In this document: in pieces, positions 605-7,525 of the stretch
Layout: the number at the start of each line of letters is the position of its first letter
Position numbering within the stretch: position 1 is the stretch's first letter
Assembly: GCF_036203305.1 (NCBI RefSeq)
Contig: NZ_CP108131.1
Span: 2,170,001-2,234,000, forward strand
Length of the DNA: 64,000 nucleotides
DNA from: Streptomyces sp. NBC_00190
GTDB taxonomy: Bacteria; Actinomycetota; Actinomycetes; Streptomycetales; Streptomycetaceae
Direction: 5' to 3'
Notes under the pieces: generated by a model
What the model saw: only the letters and a program-made list of their open reading frames with translations
Told to the model about the DNA's origin: nothing
Databases searched by the model: none
Program-made: the position numbers and the translations under genes

Positions 605-1837
605 CTAACCGGCGACGGCCCGCGGTCGCGAACCGGTCTCATGTGCCGGTCGCGCGCGTCGCCGCGCCCCCGGCGCACCCATGACCAGCACGGTCACCCC
701 GGCGGCCGCGCCGAGCACCGCGCACACGGGCCACAGCAGGCCGGGCGCGGCGTCGTACAGGGCTCCGCCGAGGGGCCCCGCGAGGACGACGCCACTGACG
801 GACACGCCCGCGTACAGGCTCTGGAACCGGCCGATGGCGTGCTCGGGCGACTCGTCGGCGACGTACGCGGTGGCGGTGGTCTTGTAGAGGATCTCGCCGA
901 GGGTGAGCAGCACCATCATCGCGACGGTGGTCGCGATGCCCACCCCGAGCAGCAGCATCGCGTAGCCGCCGCCCACCAGCACCAGACCGCTGCCGATGAC
1001 GTGCAGCGGGGAACGCCGGCGCAGGGCGAGGGCGGCGGGTATCTCCAGGAGCATGATGACGCCGCCGTTGATCCCGATGAGCAGCCCGTACGCGCGGGTG
1101 TCCATGCCGTGGTCGGCGAGGAACACCGGGAACGTCGTGTAGTGCTGCCGGTAGACGAGGTCGATGACGGCGATCGCGCCGAGCAGCACGAGGACGGCCG
1201 GCCGCGCGCGCAGCTCCCGCCACAGCCCTCCGCGGCCCAGACCCCCGTCCGGGGCCGCGGAAGGGGTCGTGGCCGCCCTGGCCGGGACGACCCGGGCGGT
1301 CCAGACGGCGAAGAAGAGGGTGCCGAGGCCGTCCGCGACGAAGAGCCAGCCGTACGAGAGTCCGGTCGCGACCAGGGCCCCGAGCGGTGCGCCCACCGCG
1401 AAGCCGGCGTTGGACATGCAGCGGGTGACGGCGAAGGCCTGGCGCCGGGAGCCCTCCGGCACGGTGACGGCGACCAGCGCGGAGTTGGCGGCCCGGATCA
1501 CCCCGGAGGCGTACTGGGCGAGCGGCAGGACGAGGGCCAGCAGGCCCGTCGGGACCGTCGGCAGGACGACGAGGGCGGCGCCGCCGAGCGCGGAGGCGGT
1601 GAGCAGCACGCGGCGGTGGCCGAAGCGGTCGCCGTACCAGCCGCCGGTGAAGTTCCCGGCGACCAGGCCGACGCCGCCGACGCCGACGACCAGGCCCGCC
1701 TGGGCGGCGCCGAGGCCGCGCGGGCCGGTCAGGTAGAGGAAGACGAAGACGAAGGTGAAGCTGACGACGGCATTGACGAAGATCCCCGCAGCCAGCAGCC
1801 ACACAGTCCTCGGTACGTCCTTGAACCCCTGCAGCAC
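605..1837 (-). CDS. MFS transporter, probable drug/metabolite exporter
   Basis: Polytopic membrane protein of about 410 residues with two blocks of hydrophobic helices separated near the middle by a charged loop, as in 12-helix MFS permeases. A loop motif GDRFGHRRVLL follows helix 2 (MFS motif A-like). I chose GTG 1837 because GGGGGA lies about 9 nt upstream and the protein then begins LQGFKDVPRTVW directly before helix 1; an in-frame start further upstream (1948) would run through the divergent promoter region. It is divergent from an HxlR-peroxiredoxin regulator across about 95 bp, which suggests that regulator controls it. The substrate cannot be read from the sequence. The stop is 9 nt from the dapD start. 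Confidence 0.85.
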   Translation of the reverse strand: MLQGFKDVPRTVWLLAAGIFVNAVVSFTFVFVFLYLTGPRGLGAAQAGLVVGVGGVGLVAGNFTGGWYGDRFGHRRVLLTASALGGAALVVLPTVPTGLLALVLPLAQYASGVIRAANSALVAVTVPEGSRRQAFAVTRCMSNAGFAVGAPLGALVATGLSYGWLFVADGLGTLFFAVWTARVVPARAATTPSAAPDGGLGRGGLWRELRARPAVLVLLGAIAVIDLVYRQHYTTFPVFLADHGMDTRAYGLLIGINGGVIMLLEIPAALALRRRSPLHVIGSGLVLVGGGYAMLLLGVGIATTVAMMVLLTLGEILYKTTATAYVADESPEHAIGRFQSLYAGVSVSGVVLAGPLGGALYDAAPGLLWPVCAVLGAAAGVTVLVMGAPGARRRARPAHETGSRPRAVAG

Positions 1838-1890
1838 ACCCGTGTCCCCCGTATCCCCGAAGCGGGTCAGTTCCTTTTGGGAACGGACTA

Positions 1891-1932: not shown

Positions 1933-2808
1933 ATGGCCCAGCGCACACACCTCGGCGACGTGGACTGCTCCATCGCCCAGGCCCTCGACGTGGTGGGCGA
2001 CTGGTGGACGCTGCTGATCGTGCGCGACGCCGCGCGCGGTCTGCACCGCTTCGAGGAGCTCCAGCGCGAGCTGGGGATGTCCCGGAAGGTCCTGGCCGAG
2101 CGGCTGAAGCTGCTGGTCGAGGCCGGGGTGCTGACGCGCGAGCCGTACCAGGAACGTCCGGTGCGGCACGAGTACCGGCTGACCCCGCGCGGGCGGGGAC
2201 TGCTGCCGGTGCTGGTGGCCCTCCAGGACTGGGGGGACAGCTGGATCCTGGGAGAGGGAGAGATGACGGCGACGACCGCGGAGGCCTCCCGGGAGGCGGA
2301 ACGGGTGCACGCGCTGCGCGGCACCCGGCTTCCGGAGCTGGCCCTGCCGGACCGTTTCGGCGAGCTGCGCGACCCGGTGGCGGACACCGCGTTCACGGTC
2401 CTGTACTGCTTCCCGGGCGCGTACGCGCGCGCCGAGTCCTACCCGCCGGGCTGGGCCGGGATACCGGGCGCAAAGGGCTGCACGTTCGAGTCGTGCACCT
2501 ACCGCGACCAGCTCGCGGAGTTCACCGCGGCCGGCGCCACCGTGCACGGCGTGTCGACCCAGCGGCCGGACGAGCAGCGGGAGTTCGCGGAGCAGGAGCG
2601 GCTGCGCTTCCCGCTCCTCTCGGACGCGGATCTGGCCCTGACGGCGGCGCTGCGGCTGCCGACCTTCCGCGCGGCGGGCACGACCCGGATCAAGCGGCTG
2701 ACCCTGGTCCTGGACCGCGACCGCACCGTGCGCGAGGTGTTCTACCCGATCCAGGACATCGAGGCGAGCGTCCAGGCGGCCCTGGCGTCGGTCCGCTCGG
2801 CAACCTAG
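1933..2808 (+). CDS. HxlR-family winged-helix regulator fused to a PrxQ-like peroxiredoxin
   Basis: A 291-residue two-domain protein. Residues 1-105 are an HxlR/MarR-type winged helix (VGDWWTLLIVRDAARGLHRFEE region, wing to about residue 90) with Cys12 at the position where redox-sensing HxlR proteins often carry a conserved cysteine. Residues about 130-290 are an AhpC/TSA thioredoxin fold with GCTFESC: Cys183 fits the peroxidatic cysteine and Cys188 the resolving cysteine of the PrxQ CxxxxC pattern. Cys159 is extra. The ATG has a clear AAGGAG 7 nt upstream. It is divergent from an MFS exporter and convergent with a TetR gene; the two TAG stops interlock in the palindrome CTAG (2805-2808). 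I infer a peroxide- or electrophile-sensing regulator of the exporter. Domain calls are confident; the sensing role is inference. Confidence 0.88.
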   Translation: MAQRTHLGDVDCSIAQALDVVGDWWTLLIVRDAARGLHRFEELQRELGMSRKVLAERLKLLVEAGVLTREPYQERPVRHEYRLTPRGRGLLPVLVALQDWGDSWILGEGEMTATTAEASREAERVHALRGTRLPELALPDRFGELRDPVADTAFTVLYCFPGAYARAESYPPGWAGIPGAKGCTFESCTYRDQLAEFTAAGATVHGVSTQRPDEQREFAEQERLRFPLLSDADLALTAALRLPTFRAAGTTRIKRLTLVLDRDRTVREVFYPIQDIEASVQAALASVRSAT

Positions 2809-3341
2809 GACGGACGCAGGACCCGGCCCAGGATCTCGCGGGCGTACGGCTCGTCGTACTCGGCGTCCGTCAGGAGGACCTGCAGGCTGATGCCGTCCAT
2901 GACGGCGACCAGGGCGCGCGCCGTCACCGGGTCGGTCCACGGGGCCAGGGCGGCGGCGACGGCCTCGCACCACTCCGCCGCCACCGGCCGCAGCGCGGGC
3001 CGTCGCAGGGCCGCCAGGTAGAGCTCGTACTCCAGCTCGGCCCGGCCCCGGTCGGCCGACAGGCTCTCCCCCAGCAGCCGCGCGAGGGCGCCCGCGAGGT
3101 CCTCGCCGTCCCGCACGGCCAGGGCGGGCGCGTAGGCCTCGTTGGCCTGCCGCAGGGCGGCGACCAGCAGGTCGTCGAGCGTCTTGAAGTGGTAGGTGGT
3201 CGACCCGAGCGGTACGTCGGCCTCCGCGGCCGCGCTGCGGTGGCTCAGCCCCGCGATGCCCTTGGCGGCCACCACCCGGATCGCCGCGTCGATGATCCGC
3301 TGCCTCCGCTCGGGGTCGTACCTGCGCGCGCCGGGAGCCAT
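2805..3341 (-). CDS. TetR-family transcriptional regulator of the adjacent SMR pump
   Basis: A 178-residue TetR repressor. The N-terminal HTH covers about residues 10-55 (QRIIDAAIRVVAAKG followed by VPLGSTTYHFKTLDDLL), and the rest is an all-helical ligand domain. Its ATG shares one base with the TGA of the upstream SMR gene (TGATG at 3339-3343), so the two are translationally coupled. Two GTAC-containing dyads just upstream of the SMR gene are the likely operators, giving a self-regulated efflux operon. The ligand is unknown; a cationic drug is plausible given the pump. Confidence 0.9.
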   Translation of the reverse strand: MAPGARRYDPERRQRIIDAAIRVVAAKGIAGLSHRSAAAEADVPLGSTTYHFKTLDDLLVAALRQANEAYAPALAVRDGEDLAGALARLLGESLSADRGRAELEYELYLAALRRPALRPVAAEWCEAVAAALAPWTDPVTARALVAVMDGISLQVLLTDAEYDEPYAREILGRVLRPS

Positions 3342-3661
3342 CAGTGCGCGCCCCCCAGGTTCAGCAGCACCACGCCACCGATCACCAGGGCGATCCCGGC
3401 GATCTTCGCGGCGGTGGCCGCCTCCCCCATGAACACCATCCCTATGGCGGCGATCGCGGCGGTCCCGACCCCGGCCCATATCGCGTACGCCGTGCCCACC
3501 GACATCGTCTTCAGCGTCTGCGCGAGCAGGGTGAAGGCGATGACGTAGCCCAGCAGCGTGCCCAGCGAGGGCCACAGCTTCGTGAAGCCGTCGCTGTACT
3601 TCATGGCGGTGGTCCCGGCGACCTCGGCGGCGATGGCCGCGGCAAGCAGTGCGTAAGGCAT
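3341..3661 (-). CDS. Small multidrug resistance (SMR/EmrE-type) transporter
   Basis: A 106-residue protein with four transmembrane helices, the normal SMR size. Glu13 in helix 1 (AAEVAGTTAMK) matches the essential membrane-embedded glutamate that binds protons and cationic substrates in EmrE; the SVGTAYAIWAG segment is the usual helix 3 signature. These proteins work as dimers driven by proton exchange. There is no Shine-Dalgarno before ATG 3661. A TACTCT hexamer 7 nt upstream and TGTACG 18 bp further away fit a promoter giving a leaderless transcript. The gene is followed by its coupled TetR repressor. Pairing of SMR subunits is possible but no second SMR gene is in the window. Confidence 0.92.
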   Translation of the reverse strand: MPYALLAAAIAAEVAGTTAMKYSDGFTKLWPSLGTLLGYVIAFTLLAQTLKTMSVGTAYAIWAGVGTAAIAAIGMVFMGEAATAAKIAGIALVIGGVVLLNLGGAH

Positions 3662-3698
3662 GTGTACAAGAGTACACAACGATGTGTACGGACGTACA
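3661..3698. promoter_or_regulatory. Two tandem TetR operator dyads covering the SMR promoter and start codon
   Basis: Site 1 is TGTGTAC-AAGA-GTACACA (3661-3678), a perfect 7-bp inverted repeat that includes the first base of the SMR start codon. Site 2 is TGTACG-GA-CGTACA (3685-3698). Their centres are 22 bp apart, about two helical turns. On the reverse strand site 1 covers a TACTCT -10 and site 2 a TGTACG -35, so repressor binding would block polymerase directly. Confidence 0.7.
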
Positions 3699-3791
3699 TA
3701 TGCAGCACCCGGGACTCCTGCGGCCTCCGGCGCTACCCTGTCCGCCTCCCAGGAGCCCGCAAGGAGCTCCCGGCGGACGGAGGGCCCGCGC

Positions 3792-4604
3792 ATGGCGCAG
3801 CACTGGACCCATCGGGGCGGCGGCTGGCTGCCCCCGCGCTCTCCACGGCCCGAGGTGATACCCCTGCGCCCACTGGGGCCGCGGGACATCCTCGACGGGA
3901 CGCTCACCACCCTGGGCCGGTACGGCGGCCGGCTGCTCGGCGCGCTGCTGCTGGGCCAGCTGGCCGGGCTGCTCCTGCTCGTCGCCGTCGCCGGAGCGGC
4001 CACCCTCGCCTCCGTCACCCGTACTGTCGGCAGCGGGGTGTTCGTCCACACCCTGGTCCCCGCCGTCGCCCTGTTCCTGCTGGCCGGCTGGGCGCTGGCC
4101 ACCGCCCTGGCCGCCGCGCTGCTCCGGCCCGCCGTGCTCGGGCGGCCCGTCACCACGCTCGGGCTGCTGCGGGCGGCGACGCCCCGGATCCCGGCCGTGC
4201 TCGGGGCCCGGCTGCTGGCCCTGCTCGCCGCCGCGGGCCCCGGCGCGGCCGCGCTCGCGGCGGGCCTGCCGCCGCTCGCGCTGCTCCCCCTCGCCCCGGT
4301 CGCCCTCTGGCTCGGAGTGCTCTTCGCCCTGGCGCCCACGGCCGCCGGGTACGAGCGGCTCGGCCCGGTGGCGGCCCTGCGCCGTTCGGCCCGCCTGGTG
4401 CGGGGGGCCTGGTGGCGGACCTTCGGCGTCACGGTCCCGGCCGGGGCCCTCGCGCTGGGCGCCGCGTTCGCCGTCCCGCTGCGGTTCGGTGTGCTCGGCG
4501 CGCTGCTCGCCCCGGCCCTGCTGCTGGCCTTCCCGCAGCCGGCTTCGGGCCTGCTCTACATGGACCGGCTGCTGCGCCTCGGACCGGGGCTCAGCCCAGG
4601 GTGA
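3792..4604 (+). CDS. Polytopic membrane protein of unknown function
   Basis: A 270-residue protein. A short basic N-terminus leads into RPLGPRDILDGTLTTLGRYGG, resembling the amphipathic start found in actinobacterial membrane proteins related to the glycerophosphodiesterase membrane domain. About six hydrophobic Ala/Leu-rich helices follow, from residue 45 to the end. ATG 3792 has GGAGGG upstream. The 3' end overlaps the converging DUF3616-like gene by 14 bp. No catalytic motif is visible, and I do not assign a substrate or partner. Confidence 0.7.
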   Translation: MAQHWTHRGGGWLPPRSPRPEVIPLRPLGPRDILDGTLTTLGRYGGRLLGALLLGQLAGLLLLVAVAGAATLASVTRTVGSGVFVHTLVPAVALFLLAGWALATALAAALLRPAVLGRPVTTLGLLRAATPRIPAVLGARLLALLAAAGPGAAALAAGLPPLALLPLAPVALWLGVLFALAPTAAGYERLGPVAALRRSARLVRGAWWRTFGVTVPAGALALGAAFAVPLRFGVLGALLAPALLLAFPQPASGLLYMDRLLRLGPGLSPG

Positions 4605-5952
4605 ACCAGGCCGTGCGGGCCTTCTTCCACTCCGGGTGCGTCAGGTCCTTGGCCTCGACGCCGTCCCCGTACAGGTCCGCCGAACCGCTGTCGGTGACCA
4701 GCTGCACCCGCGCGCCCGCCGCCGTCAGGTCGGGCACGTCCACGATGGCCTCCCAGCCGCCGGGGTCGGTGGTCGGCAGGTCGGCCCGCTTGACCGGGGC
4801 GTGGCCGGGGACGCCGTCCCACTGGTAGAGCGCGTACGGGTCGGAGTTGTCGTCCGCCGCCCAGGAACCGGCCAGGATCAGGTACTGGTTCGCCGCGTTC
4901 TTGCGGATGTCACGGACGGACAGCCCGCCGAGGTCGAGCTCGATGCCCGTCCCGAAGACCGCCTCGACCCCGGACGCCAGGACCTGGTCGAAGTTGGTGA
5001 CGGGCACGATCAGCGCCTTGCCGCCGGGGACGGCGGGCGCCAGCGGGGCCCGGAAGCCCAGGTAGGCGGTGGCGGTGGAGCCGGGCGCGAACTCCAGCCC
5101 TTCCACGTTGAATCCGTCGATCTGCTTCGGCGCCTGGCCGGCCGCGGTCCCCGCCGCGAAGCCGTAGCGGTTGCCGTTCGCCGTGTCCCAGGCCACCAGA
5201 TCGTCGCGGAGCTTCTTGTACGAGCGCTCGTACGCGAGCTGCGTGCCGGTCCCGGATCCGCTCACCGTGGTGGTGAACACCGTGTTCCGGGGCGCCTTGT
5301 ACTCGCCATCCTTGTTGTTGCCGAGCGAGCCCGTCCAGTAGATGGTGTCACCGATCCGGGTCGCCCCCTCGATGTCCACCTCCTTGGTGACCCCGAGCTG
5401 CGAGCTGAAGTCCCAGGTCCGCACCGGGGCACCCGACCGCGAACGGTCGTACAGGCGCAGCACGTTGGACTCGTCGTCGGCGACGATCGCGTACCCGCCG
5501 CCCACGTCGACGGCGGCCGAGGCGTCCGAGGACCCGGTGAGGTACCGCGCGTCGGCCGGGTTCTGCACGGCGGCCGAAGCCGCGTAGTACAGGGTCTTGG
5601 TGGCCGTCTTGCCGCCCAGCCCGGTCACCTTGACGGTGAGGTTGGTGTAGCCGCGGCCCCGCGCGGCGACGGCCAGCTGCCGCACCGCCCCGGCTCCGGT
5701 CACGGTGACGTCGCCGGTACCGGCGACGGAGGCCTTGCTCGACGCCGAGGCGCTGACGGTCAGCGCGGAGGCGTCGGCCCCGCTCTGCCCCACGGTCACG
5801 TTCACCACCGGGTCCCCGACGGCGCCGACTGCCCCGGACAGGTAGGAGGCGGACAGCCCGATGGTGGGCGTCCCGTACGTCACGGCCTGGGCGGGCGCGC
5901 CGACCGCGGCGACCACCATCGCCGCGAGACCTGCGACAGCGAACTTCTTCAT
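4591..5952 (-). CDS. Secreted DUF3616-like protein, downstream copy of a tandem pair
   Basis: A 453-residue exported protein. It has a Sec signal peptide (MKKFAVAGLAAMVVAAVGAP, cleavage near AQA), then an Ig-like N-terminal region (about 28-130) and a large domain beginning LTGSSDASAAVDVGGGYAIV. Its ADDESNVLRLYDRSRSGAPV segment resembles DUF3616 proteins, and the rest may form a beta-propeller-like fold. No enzyme motif is evident. Its ATG overlaps the TGA of the upstream paralogue (ATGA at 5949-5952), so both are made from one message. Nucleotide identity with that paralogue is very uneven: long stretches of the C-terminal half are identical while the N-terminal part has diverged. Confidence 0.8.
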   Translation of the reverse strand: MKKFAVAGLAAMVVAAVGAPAQAVTYGTPTIGLSASYLSGAVGAVGDPVVNVTVGQSGADASALTVSASASSKASVAGTGDVTVTGAGAVRQLAVAARGRGYTNLTVKVTGLGGKTATKTLYYAASAAVQNPADARYLTGSSDASAAVDVGGGYAIVADDESNVLRLYDRSRSGAPVRTWDFSSQLGVTKEVDIEGATRIGDTIYWTGSLGNNKDGEYKAPRNTVFTTTVSGSGTGTQLAYERSYKKLRDDLVAWDTANGNRYGFAAGTAAGQAPKQIDGFNVEGLEFAPGSTATAYLGFRAPLAPAVPGGKALIVPVTNFDQVLASGVEAVFGTGIELDLGGLSVRDIRKNAANQYLILAGSWAADDNSDPYALYQWDGVPGHAPVKRADLPTTDPGGWEAIVDVPDLTAAGARVQLVTDSGSADLYGDGVEAKDLTHPEWKKARTAWFTLG

Positions 5953-6295
5953 CGGTGACCCCCACGGGTGAAGTTGAGCGTGAACCATGCGGACCGGGAC
6001 TTCTTCCACTCCGGGTGGCCGAGGTCCTTGGCCTCGGTGCCGTCGCCGTACAGGTCGGCGGCGCCGCTGTCGGTGATCAGCTGGACTGGGGCGCCGGGAG
6101 CCCGCAGATCGGGTACGTCGACCACGGCCTCCCAGCCGCCGGGGTCGGAGGTGGGCAGGTCGGCCCGCTTCTTCGGCGCGTGGCCGGGGACGCCGTCCCA
6201 CTGGTAGAGCGCGTACGGGTCGGAGTTGTCGTCCGCCGCCCAGGAACCGGCCAGGATCAGGTACTGGTTCGCCGCGTTCTTGCGGATGTCACGGA
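4798..6295. repeat. Perfect direct repeat (about 118 bp) shared by the two DUF3616-like genes
   Basis: Bases about 4798-4916 recur at about 6177-6295, offset 1379 bp, without mismatch including third codon positions. A second near-identical block lies at about 5085-5200 versus 6464-6579. The flanking N-terminal halves are clearly diverged. Confidence 0.85.
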
Positions 6296-7376
6296 TGGCG
6301 AGGCCGCCGAGGTCGAGCTCGATGCCCGTCCCGAAGACCGCCTCGGCCCCGGACGCCAGGACCTGGTCGAAGTTGGTGACGGGCACGATCAGCGCCTTGG
6401 CGCCGGGGACGGCGGGCGCCAGCGGGACCCGGAAGCCCAGGTAGGCGGTGGTGGTGGAGCCGGGCGCGAACTCCAGCCCTTCCACGTTAAACCCGTCGAT
6501 CTGCTTCGGCACCTGGCCGGCCGCGGTCCCCGCCGCGAAGCCGTAGCGGTTGCCGTTCGCCGTGTCCCAGGCCACCAGGTCCTGGCGCAGGCCCCGGTAG
6601 GCACGGGCGAAGGTGACCTCGGTCGCGGCGCCGGAGCCGGTGATCTTCGTCGTGAAGACGGTGTTCCGCTCGGCCTTGTACTCGCCGTCCTTGTTGTTGC
6701 CCAGCGAGCCCGTCCAGTAGACGGTGTCGCCGACCCGGGCGGCCGCCTCGATGTCGGCCTCCTTCTTCAGGCCGAACGCGGGACCGAGATCCCAGGACTT
6801 CACCGGGGCGCCGGAACGGGAACGGTCGTACAGCCGCAGCACGTTGGACTCGTCGTCGGCCACCAGCACGTGACCGCCGCCCACGTCGACGGCGGCGGAG
6901 GCGTCCGAGGAGCCGGTCAGGTAGCGCGTGCCGAGGCCGTTGCCCACGCGCGCGGAGGCCGCGTAGGACAGGGTGGCCGTGGCGGTCTTCCCGCCGCGCC
7001 CGGTGACCTCCAGGGTCAGCTCGGTGTAGCCCTGCCCGTGGGCCTGCACCGTCAGGCGCCGGTCCCCTTCGCGGGTCCGCTCCTGCCGTACGTCGCCCAC
7101 GCCCGCGACGGCCGGATTGCTGGAGGAGACCACTCTCAGCCGCAGGAATCCGTCCGGTACACCGGCCTGCCCGACGTCCGCCGTCACGGCCGGGTCGCCG
7201 TACGCGCCCACCGCACCGCTCAGATGCGTGGCGGACAGCGAGACGGTCACGGCGGCGGCCTCCGGCAGGACGGCTCCCGCGGCCACGGGAGCGGTCAGCC
7301 CCGCGACGAGCAGGGCCGCGGCCCCTGCGGCGCCCGCGGCGCCCCAACGGCGCGCCGGTGAAAGGCGAACGGTCAC
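5949..7376 (-). CDS. Secreted DUF3616-like protein, upstream copy of a tandem pair
   Basis: A 475-residue paralogue of the next gene with the same order: a signal peptide (hydrophobic stretch residues 12-35, cleavage near VAAGA), an Ig-like region, then the SDASAAVDVGGG/ADDESNVLRLYDRSRSG domain. I chose GTG 7376 because GAGAGG lies 7-12 nt upstream. The promoter must lie in 7377-7525, since the SUF operon terminator is just beyond. Secretion is supported by the sequence; function is unknown. The family is only tentatively DUF3616. Confidence 0.78.
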   Translation of the reverse strand: MTVRLSPARRWGAAGAAGAAALLVAGLTAPVAAGAVLPEAAAVTVSLSATHLSGAVGAYGDPAVTADVGQAGVPDGFLRLRVVSSSNPAVAGVGDVRQERTREGDRRLTVQAHGQGYTELTLEVTGRGGKTATATLSYAASARVGNGLGTRYLTGSSDASAAVDVGGGHVLVADDESNVLRLYDRSRSGAPVKSWDLGPAFGLKKEADIEAAARVGDTVYWTGSLGNNKDGEYKAERNTVFTTKITGSGAATEVTFARAYRGLRQDLVAWDTANGNRYGFAAGTAAGQVPKQIDGFNVEGLEFAPGSTTTAYLGFRVPLAPAVPGAKALIVPVTNFDQVLASGAEAVFGTGIELDLGGLAIRDIRKNAANQYLILAGSWAADDNSDPYALYQWDGVPGHAPKKRADLPTSDPGGWEAVVDVPDLRAPGAPVQLITDSGAADLYGDGTEAKDLGHPEWKKSRSAWFTLNFTRGGHR

Positions 7377-7525
7377 GGGTGGTCCTCTCGTGGTCTGCGT
7401 CACGTCGTGACGGCCGTCGAGAAGATTCGGCCACCATGGCCAACTCCGCGTGCACTTCATCCGTCCACCCGGAGAACAGCGGACCGGAAGAAGGCGCACC
7501 GGAAGAGAGTCCGGCGGAAAACGAG

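Follow-up and report, generated by a model that had tools for sequence, protein, structure and literature searches.

The window, a 64,000-nucleotide stretch of DNA (G000:C1:2170001-2234000) within an 8.89-Mb genome, contains a gene in which an HxlR winged helix and a peroxiredoxin-fold domain are joined in one chain. Comparison of related fusions showed that their conserved core is Cys12 of the HxlR half together with Cys183 of the peroxiredoxin half, not the Cys183/Cys188 pair. The gene lies behind a 25-bp palindrome, the predicted operator, which is tied to the fusion and to an O-methyltransferase gene; the fusion, the conservation of Cys12 and Cys183, the operator and these ties are read directly from sequence. 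We propose an autoregulated redox repressor whose own chain includes the receptor for oxidants, so that oxidation of Cys183 would be handed to Cys12; we hold this reading tentatively, as quite possible. In a broader sense the fusion is likely to sense stress and to control pumps and detoxifying enzymes in response.

The fusion gene and its distribution

An earlier note on this DNA described an HxlR winged helix and a peroxiredoxin in a single polypeptide, with cysteines at positions 12, 183 and 188, and this description is borne out: the open reading frame has an ATG start preceded by AAAGGAG and no internal stop, Pfam recognizes both domains, and all three cysteine codons are in place (Table 1). 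One further cysteine, C159, is present. The HxlR domain scores 88.3 bits, above the Pfam gathering cut-off of 20.8, and the solved relatives of this half, found by sequence, are PA1607, 4gcv, HxlR, YodB, YybR and QsrR; the 50 matches listed cover the peroxiredoxin half of the fusion, and the identity of the HxlR half rests on sequence. In the other half, Pfam found AhpC-TSA (PF00578, residues 181-268, E 8.8e-14) and Redoxin (PF08534, residues 182-275, E 3e-8); the protein has the AhpC-TSA/Redoxin domain and the peroxiredoxin fold of the PrxQ/BCP group. All 12 PDB matches of this half start at the active site, past a loop insertion. No NCBIfam model reached its cut-off for the fusion protein (PRK09437, 45.2 bits versus 140; PerredPrxQDein, 41.1 versus 260). 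The fusion is single-copy in its own genome, where the remaining 11 of 12 matches are half-length only, nine to the HxlR half and two to the redoxin half; one of the nine continues as far as residue 137 of the query and contains one stop.

Table 1. Positions in the window of the fusion gene, its parts, the predicted operator and the divergent gene
Feature	Position	Strand	Basis or remark
Divergent MFS exporter gene	605..1837	-	PF07690; likely GTG start near 1837 (our own reading), mechanical ORF to 1948
Predicted operator GGTCAGTTCCTTTTGGGAACGGACT, form of AGTNAGTTCC-N5-GGAACTNACT with 2 mismatches	1865..1889		conserved palindrome
HxlR-peroxiredoxin fusion gene, 291 aa	1933..2808 (stop included)	+	ORF reading, Pfam, conservation
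Cys12 codon, conserved N-terminal HxlR-family cysteine	1966..1968	+	
HxlR winged-helix domain, residues 20-105	1990..2247	+	Pfam PF01638, E 3.1e-25
Peroxiredoxin-fold domain, residues 124-291	2302..2805	+	
Cys183 codon, peroxidatic cysteine	2479..2481	+	
Cys188 codon, position of the resolving cysteine, not kept throughout the family	2494..2496	+	

The earlier note had suggested a search for the same architecture elsewhere, and had named a frameshift joining two genes, or a lack of homologues, as what would speak against it. A scan of genome contigs gave 171 relatives, of which 80 were retained, and all 80 are single chains of 289-315 aa; the titles give Streptomyces for 79 of these loci and 'Actinobacteria bacterium OV450' for the remaining one (L009). 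The full-length fusion was found in 19 of 394 sampled genomes of the class, 14 in the genus of the window and 5 across four other families, and a partial fusion in two more (L107 and L108). Among the best 120 of 2603, 1572 and 1474 matches in protein searches, fusions came from Streptomyces, Kribbella, Allostreptomyces, Nocardioides, Terrabacter, Terracoccus, Intrasporangium, Calidifontibacter, Angustibacter and a Humibacillus MAG. A 296-genome sample of the phylum, including the genome and the genus of the window, yielded two already-known fusions and two standalone redoxins at E 1e-40. A sequencing or annotation artefact that joined two genes, by frameshift or misjoin, has practically no chance of being the explanation: nothing was found in its favour, and the one chain at all 80 loci, each from a separate assembly, together with the presence of the fusion in 17 of 61 Streptomyces genomes, excludes it. 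Many fusions carry the JGI label 'DNA-binding HxlR family transcriptional regulator/peroxiredoxin', so annotation pipelines do recognize the architecture. Judged by the titles and abstract openings listed, no study of an HxlR-peroxiredoxin fusion was found in the open-access literature, which agrees with the suggestion that the type is uncharacterized.

A redoxin tree of 35 rows groups its 18 fusions on a single branch (95/99; recovered in 94% of 200 bootstrap trees), as would fit a join that arose once. A 37-row HxlR tree does not unite the fusions; two changes are needed, 0% of 200 bootstrap trees give one, and the starred branches never force more than one change. Derivation of the fusion from an adjacent HxlR-redoxin gene pair was rejected, since a tblastn search with the HxlR half of the window protein (E 1e-3) found no HxlR match flanking the 17 standalone redoxin loci (flanks mostly 1.5 kb per side, shorter in two of the 17).

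Conservation of the cysteines and the peroxiredoxin active site

Cysteines were counted in 458 aligned fusions (361 proteins, 80 loci and L090-L106), near-identical copies included; 360 of the proteins came from the best-hit lists (best 120 of 2603, 1572 and 1474), and the counts exclude L107 and L108, which are partial genes. Thinning to less than 90% identity gave a non-redundant set of 192. Cys183 is present in 458/458 and 192/192 fusions, and Cys12 in 453/458 (5 gaps) and 188/192 (4 gaps). Cys188 is found in 323 of the 458 and is missing in 135 (127 Arg, 8 others); in the non-redundant set it is kept in 116 and lost in 76. Cys159 is present in 327/458, Arg252 in 458/458 and Arg255 in 457/458. 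In 44 of the 192 non-redundant fusions, Cys12 and Cys183 are the sole cysteines. The intact Cys183/Cys188 pair claimed in the earlier note therefore stands for the window protein and fails as a general feature, and its role as the sensing unit is disfavoured by the repeated loss of Cys188 among fusions. In the redoxin tree, members without Cys188 occur in three places (L095/L096; L099/L101/L102; a ten-row branch of the L097-L106 type), which at least three losses would fit best, if the cysteine is ancestral. All 16 readable standalone redoxin relatives (17 loci examined) keep the resolving cysteine at +5; thus, the loss is seen only among fusions.

The peroxidatic motif of PrxQ/BCP proteins has the form P-(X)3-(T/S)-[P/F]-X-Cys (PMC5811025). 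In the window protein, the resolving cysteine is at +5 from the peroxidatic one (C188), while the places of the Pro and the Thr/Ser are taken by G176 and A180. Read by eye, the loop ahead of Cys183 is about 15 residues longer than usual, and P161 may be the Pro of the motif with a lengthened loop. At position 180, three residues before the peroxidatic cysteine and usually Thr or Ser, the 192 fusions have Ala in 97, Gly in 75, Thr in 19 and Ser in 1. Ala or Gly at this position (172/192) could mean weak peroxidase activity, and with the lengthened loop it makes the 'dedicated peroxidase' of the earlier note uncertain. Ala is also found there in the same 16 standalone relatives. L118, L119 and 14 of the standalone loci L126-L150 belong to a group of standalone peroxiredoxins that have a comparable insertion in the loop and Ala at -3 (IPGARGCTPESC type).

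Cys12 was present in 19 of 20 loci read for standalone HxlR proteins, the remaining match being too poor to read; its presence is thus no proof of a relay. In known members of the HxlR family an N-terminal cysteine is the sensing position, Cys11 in HxlR and Cys6 in YodB (PMC7835342, PMC8063818).

The palindrome and the genes around it

The earlier note had also pointed to a palindrome between the fusion gene and a divergent MFS exporter gene, and both prove to be conserved, the exporter within the clade of the window. Upstream of the 80 loci, the 25-bp dyad has 0 mismatches in 13, 1 in 42, 2 in 18, 3 in 3, 4 in 3 and 6 in 1. Three mismatches or fewer were found in 76/80 upstream regions versus 0/80 shuffled ones (4 mismatches once, at least 6 in 79), and thus the palindrome is beyond chance. 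At 24 additional or more remote loci (50-90% identity), mismatches in the best site number at most 2 in 15, 3 in 4 and 4 in 3, so that 22 keep the operator at 4 or fewer although the divergent partners vary; the weakest, L215 (5 mismatches) and L099 (6), have no clear site, which counts against the repressor model. A TAT-like -10 sequence often follows directly, for example ACTATACT in L101 (read by eye), which suggests that the predicted operator overlaps the promoter of the fusion gene. In some of the Streptomyces members the dyad is present twice, in tandem.

A site at 2 mismatches or fewer is present in 15 of the 61 Streptomyces genomes, and each of these 15 carries the fusion. No such site occurs in the 44 fusion-free genomes, nor in the fusion-positive G673 and G703, which have degraded sites only (L215 with 5 and L216 with 3 mismatches); the co-occurrence gives a Fisher p of 2e-12, with shared ancestry ignored. 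Seventeen of the 20 distinct sites are at the fusion gene and three are before an O-methyltransferase gene (G018, G681, G716). The reversed pattern, used as a control, gave one site in the 61 genomes (in G708), and the chance expectation of the 25-mer is about 0.18 per genome at even base composition. At 3 mismatches, the genome of the window has 5 rows versus 2 control matches; such matches therefore mean little there. That the operator is a general HxlR site was rejected, because it is absent at 2 mismatches or fewer from the 44 fusion-free genomes. A related dyad occurs at standalone HxlR genes of the nearest subfamily in other families (in L116 with 0 mismatches in the 12 half-site letters tested), and thus the DNA specificity of the fusion was probably inherited. 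In G087 (L107, L154, L233), the HxlR domain lacks its first half, and the sequence read there contains no operator (7 mismatches at best); loss of both the reading head and the site fits the assignment of the site to the fusion protein.

A divergent MFS_1 match was obtained by tblastn in 73 of the 80 loci of the clade of the window (in L015 for a short stretch only) and in 7 there was none; NCBIfam models match the MFS gene of the window only far below cut-off, for example one for a multidrug resistance protein. Elsewhere, Pfam identified MFS_1 (L232), MFS_3 (L224, L226, L228, L230) or an ABC-2 permease (L223, L225) as the divergent partner, and an ABC-2 ATPase gene was read as well in L223. 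The conserved neighbourhood that the earlier note proposed to look for thus exists in the clade, with the exporter and the operator mostly kept; the divergent partner varies outside it. Exchange of partners with a mostly constant operator is as expected from a repressor recruiting efflux and detoxification genes. In L229 and L234 (genomes G225 and G664), the operator lies between the fusion gene and a divergent enolase gene, recognized by Pfam in L229 (1784-3148, Enolase_N and Enolase_C) and by likeness in L234; a glycolytic enzyme is a puzzling neighbour there. In L235, none of the MFS, ABC-2, O-methyltransferase or enolase partners adjoins the fusion. The gene next to it there resembles what we take to be dapD.

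On the other side of the fusion gene, the minus strand of the window has a TetR-type gene (2805-3344) and an SMR-family exporter gene (3341-3661), both often found beside the fusion. By eye, the palindromes TGTACAAGAGTACA and TGTACGGACGTACA ahead of the SMR exporter (dyads at about 3660-3700) resemble TetR operators, and two adjoining similar open reading frames further on (about 4591-5952 and 5968-7499, minus strand) appear to be a tandem duplication.

The second site in the genome of the window (G000:C1:7220263-7220283; 2 mismatches in a 21-base pattern, 3 in the 25-mer) is about 20-40 bp ahead of a class I O-methyltransferase gene (region G000:C1:7219584-7220283, L151), which we predict to be a second target. 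A survey of this gene gave 40 matches in the 61 genomes, of which 30 were read. The core site (0-1 mismatch) precedes 6/6 orthologs of at least 70% identity, the six genomes of which all hold the fusion, and 1 of the 24 others (L163). In addition, a methyltransferase gene of the same family (PF01596) is divergent from the fusion in G163, with a 4-mismatch site between them (L104). The target is thus supported twice, by the sites at orthologs in fusion genomes and by this neighbour. Against the model, the genome of L163 (G690) has the core site with 1 mismatch and no fusion. The nearest solved relatives of the methyltransferase are putative O-methyltransferases, with catechol O-methyltransferases among the weaker matches. 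Exporter and methyltransferase targets would suit stress by aromatic or redox-active compounds; the neighbours of the fusion are not classical peroxide-defence genes, which counts against the proposed reading. This target and the universal Cys12 and Cys183 pair were out of reach of the earlier note.

A possible mechanism, its alternatives and known systems

From these features we infer operator binding, repression, oxidation of Cys183, transfer to Cys12 and peroxide as the signal. In its reduced state, the HxlR dimer would occupy the 25-bp operator, within the promoter region that separates the fusion gene from the exporter, and the same repressor would also sit before the O-methyltransferase gene elsewhere in the genome. 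Cys183 would be oxidized by peroxide, or by peroxide arising from redox-cycling catechols, quinones or antibiotics, and the oxidation would be handed to Cys12, part of HxlR helix 1, directly or via Cys188 where it is kept; the simplest route would lead from a sulfenic acid at Cys183 to Cys12. The altered dimer would then leave the DNA, which would induce the exporter and the methyltransferase along with the sensor itself. A more specific version, that Cys12 replaced the resolving cysteine for Cys183 so that each turnover step of a one-polypeptide relay would be a transcription signal, we consider unlikely as it stands; it would explain why Cys188 was repeatedly lost with Cys12 and Cys183 kept. 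Two further points count against the proposed mechanism. The predicted structure is that of a monomer, with residues 1-12 at pLDDT below 50; and in G269 (L153) the HxlR half is lost while the redoxin gene, the MFS-like divergent gene and a 1-mismatch operator are retained, so that the halves can work apart.

The main rival to the relay is that Cys12 alone senses electrophiles or oxidants, as in YodB or QsrR, and that the peroxiredoxin half is a passenger, one of the detoxifying enzymes that it induces, fused for co-expression, with no signal passed from one domain to the other. The sensing role of the N-terminal cysteine in known HxlR members (PMC7835342, PMC8063818) agrees with this, as does the position of the fusion gene behind its own operator, by which the enzyme would be induced, and the redoxin gene of G269 persists alone behind such a site. 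The C54S variant of Corynebacterium glutamicum PrxQ bears on both sides: it is inactive with thioredoxin in vitro, not being effectively reduced by it, and retains mild survival effects in vivo (PMC5811025). However, selection for turnover should preserve the resolving cysteine, which fusions lose repeatedly and the standalone relatives read keep, and regulators would normally be too scarce for useful scavenging. We find a self-induced detoxifier somewhat doubtful. Since the C. glutamicum PrxQ is poorly reduced without its resolving cysteine, a fusion that has dropped Cys188 with Cys12 and Cys183 kept appears more sensor-like than scavenger-like. It is quite improbable, in our judgement, that the peroxiredoxin half is dead or nearly dead as a catalyst and serves for ligand binding or dimerization, the protein then sensing an exported compound and not peroxide. 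Ala or Gly at -3 in 172/192, loss of the resolving cysteine in 76/192, the long loop insertion and the neighbouring exporters and methyltransferase would all be in keeping with such a domain, but the retention of Cys183 in 458/458 and Arg255 in 457/458 fusions would be difficult to account for unless Cys183 takes part in thiol chemistry.

The autoregulated redox repressor that we prefer resembles known systems in each of its parts. With the HxlR/MarR-DUF24 sensors YodB, QsrR, HypR and HxlR it shares the winged helix-turn-helix, the conserved N-terminal cysteine, a palindromic site, here predicted, and putative detoxification targets; the solved HxlR-type chains among the matches measure 107-168 aa and lack the second, enzymatic domain that the fusion has, and the YodB site, TACT-N7-AGTA (PMC8063818), differs from AGTNAGTTCC-N5-GGAACTNACT. 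With PrxQ/BCP proteins (Mycobacterium tuberculosis BcpB, 5epf, and C. glutamicum PrxQ) it shares the peroxiredoxin fold, the peroxidatic cysteine, the conserved Arg and, in the window protein, the +5 resolving cysteine. In contrast to them, the fusion has a longer loop before the active site, mostly Ala or Gly for Thr/Ser at -3, a resolving cysteine lost in 135/458 members and an attached DNA-binding domain. Peroxide-responsive control of transcription, as proposed here, is also the function of OhrR, OxyR and PerR, regulators that themselves carry the cysteine or metal site by which they sense peroxide and do not use a peroxiredoxin domain for it. The fusion points to drug-type exporters and an O-methyltransferase being under redox-linked control in Streptomyces, a genus rich in antibiotic producers.

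In eukaryotes, Orp1-Yap1 is a two-protein relay from a peroxidase thiol to a transcription factor. Prx2-STAT3 is likewise a eukaryotic two-protein relay, from a peroxiredoxin to a transcription factor, and how the partners of such relays meet has been an open question (PMC7481202). The proposed likeness is that a peroxidase thiol is oxidized first and hands the oxidation to a regulator; the difference is that those relays employ two eukaryotic proteins, whereas the relay proposed here would take place within one bacterial polypeptide. With both partners in one chain, a 25-bp operator and few definite targets, the chemistry would be directly testable in vitro.
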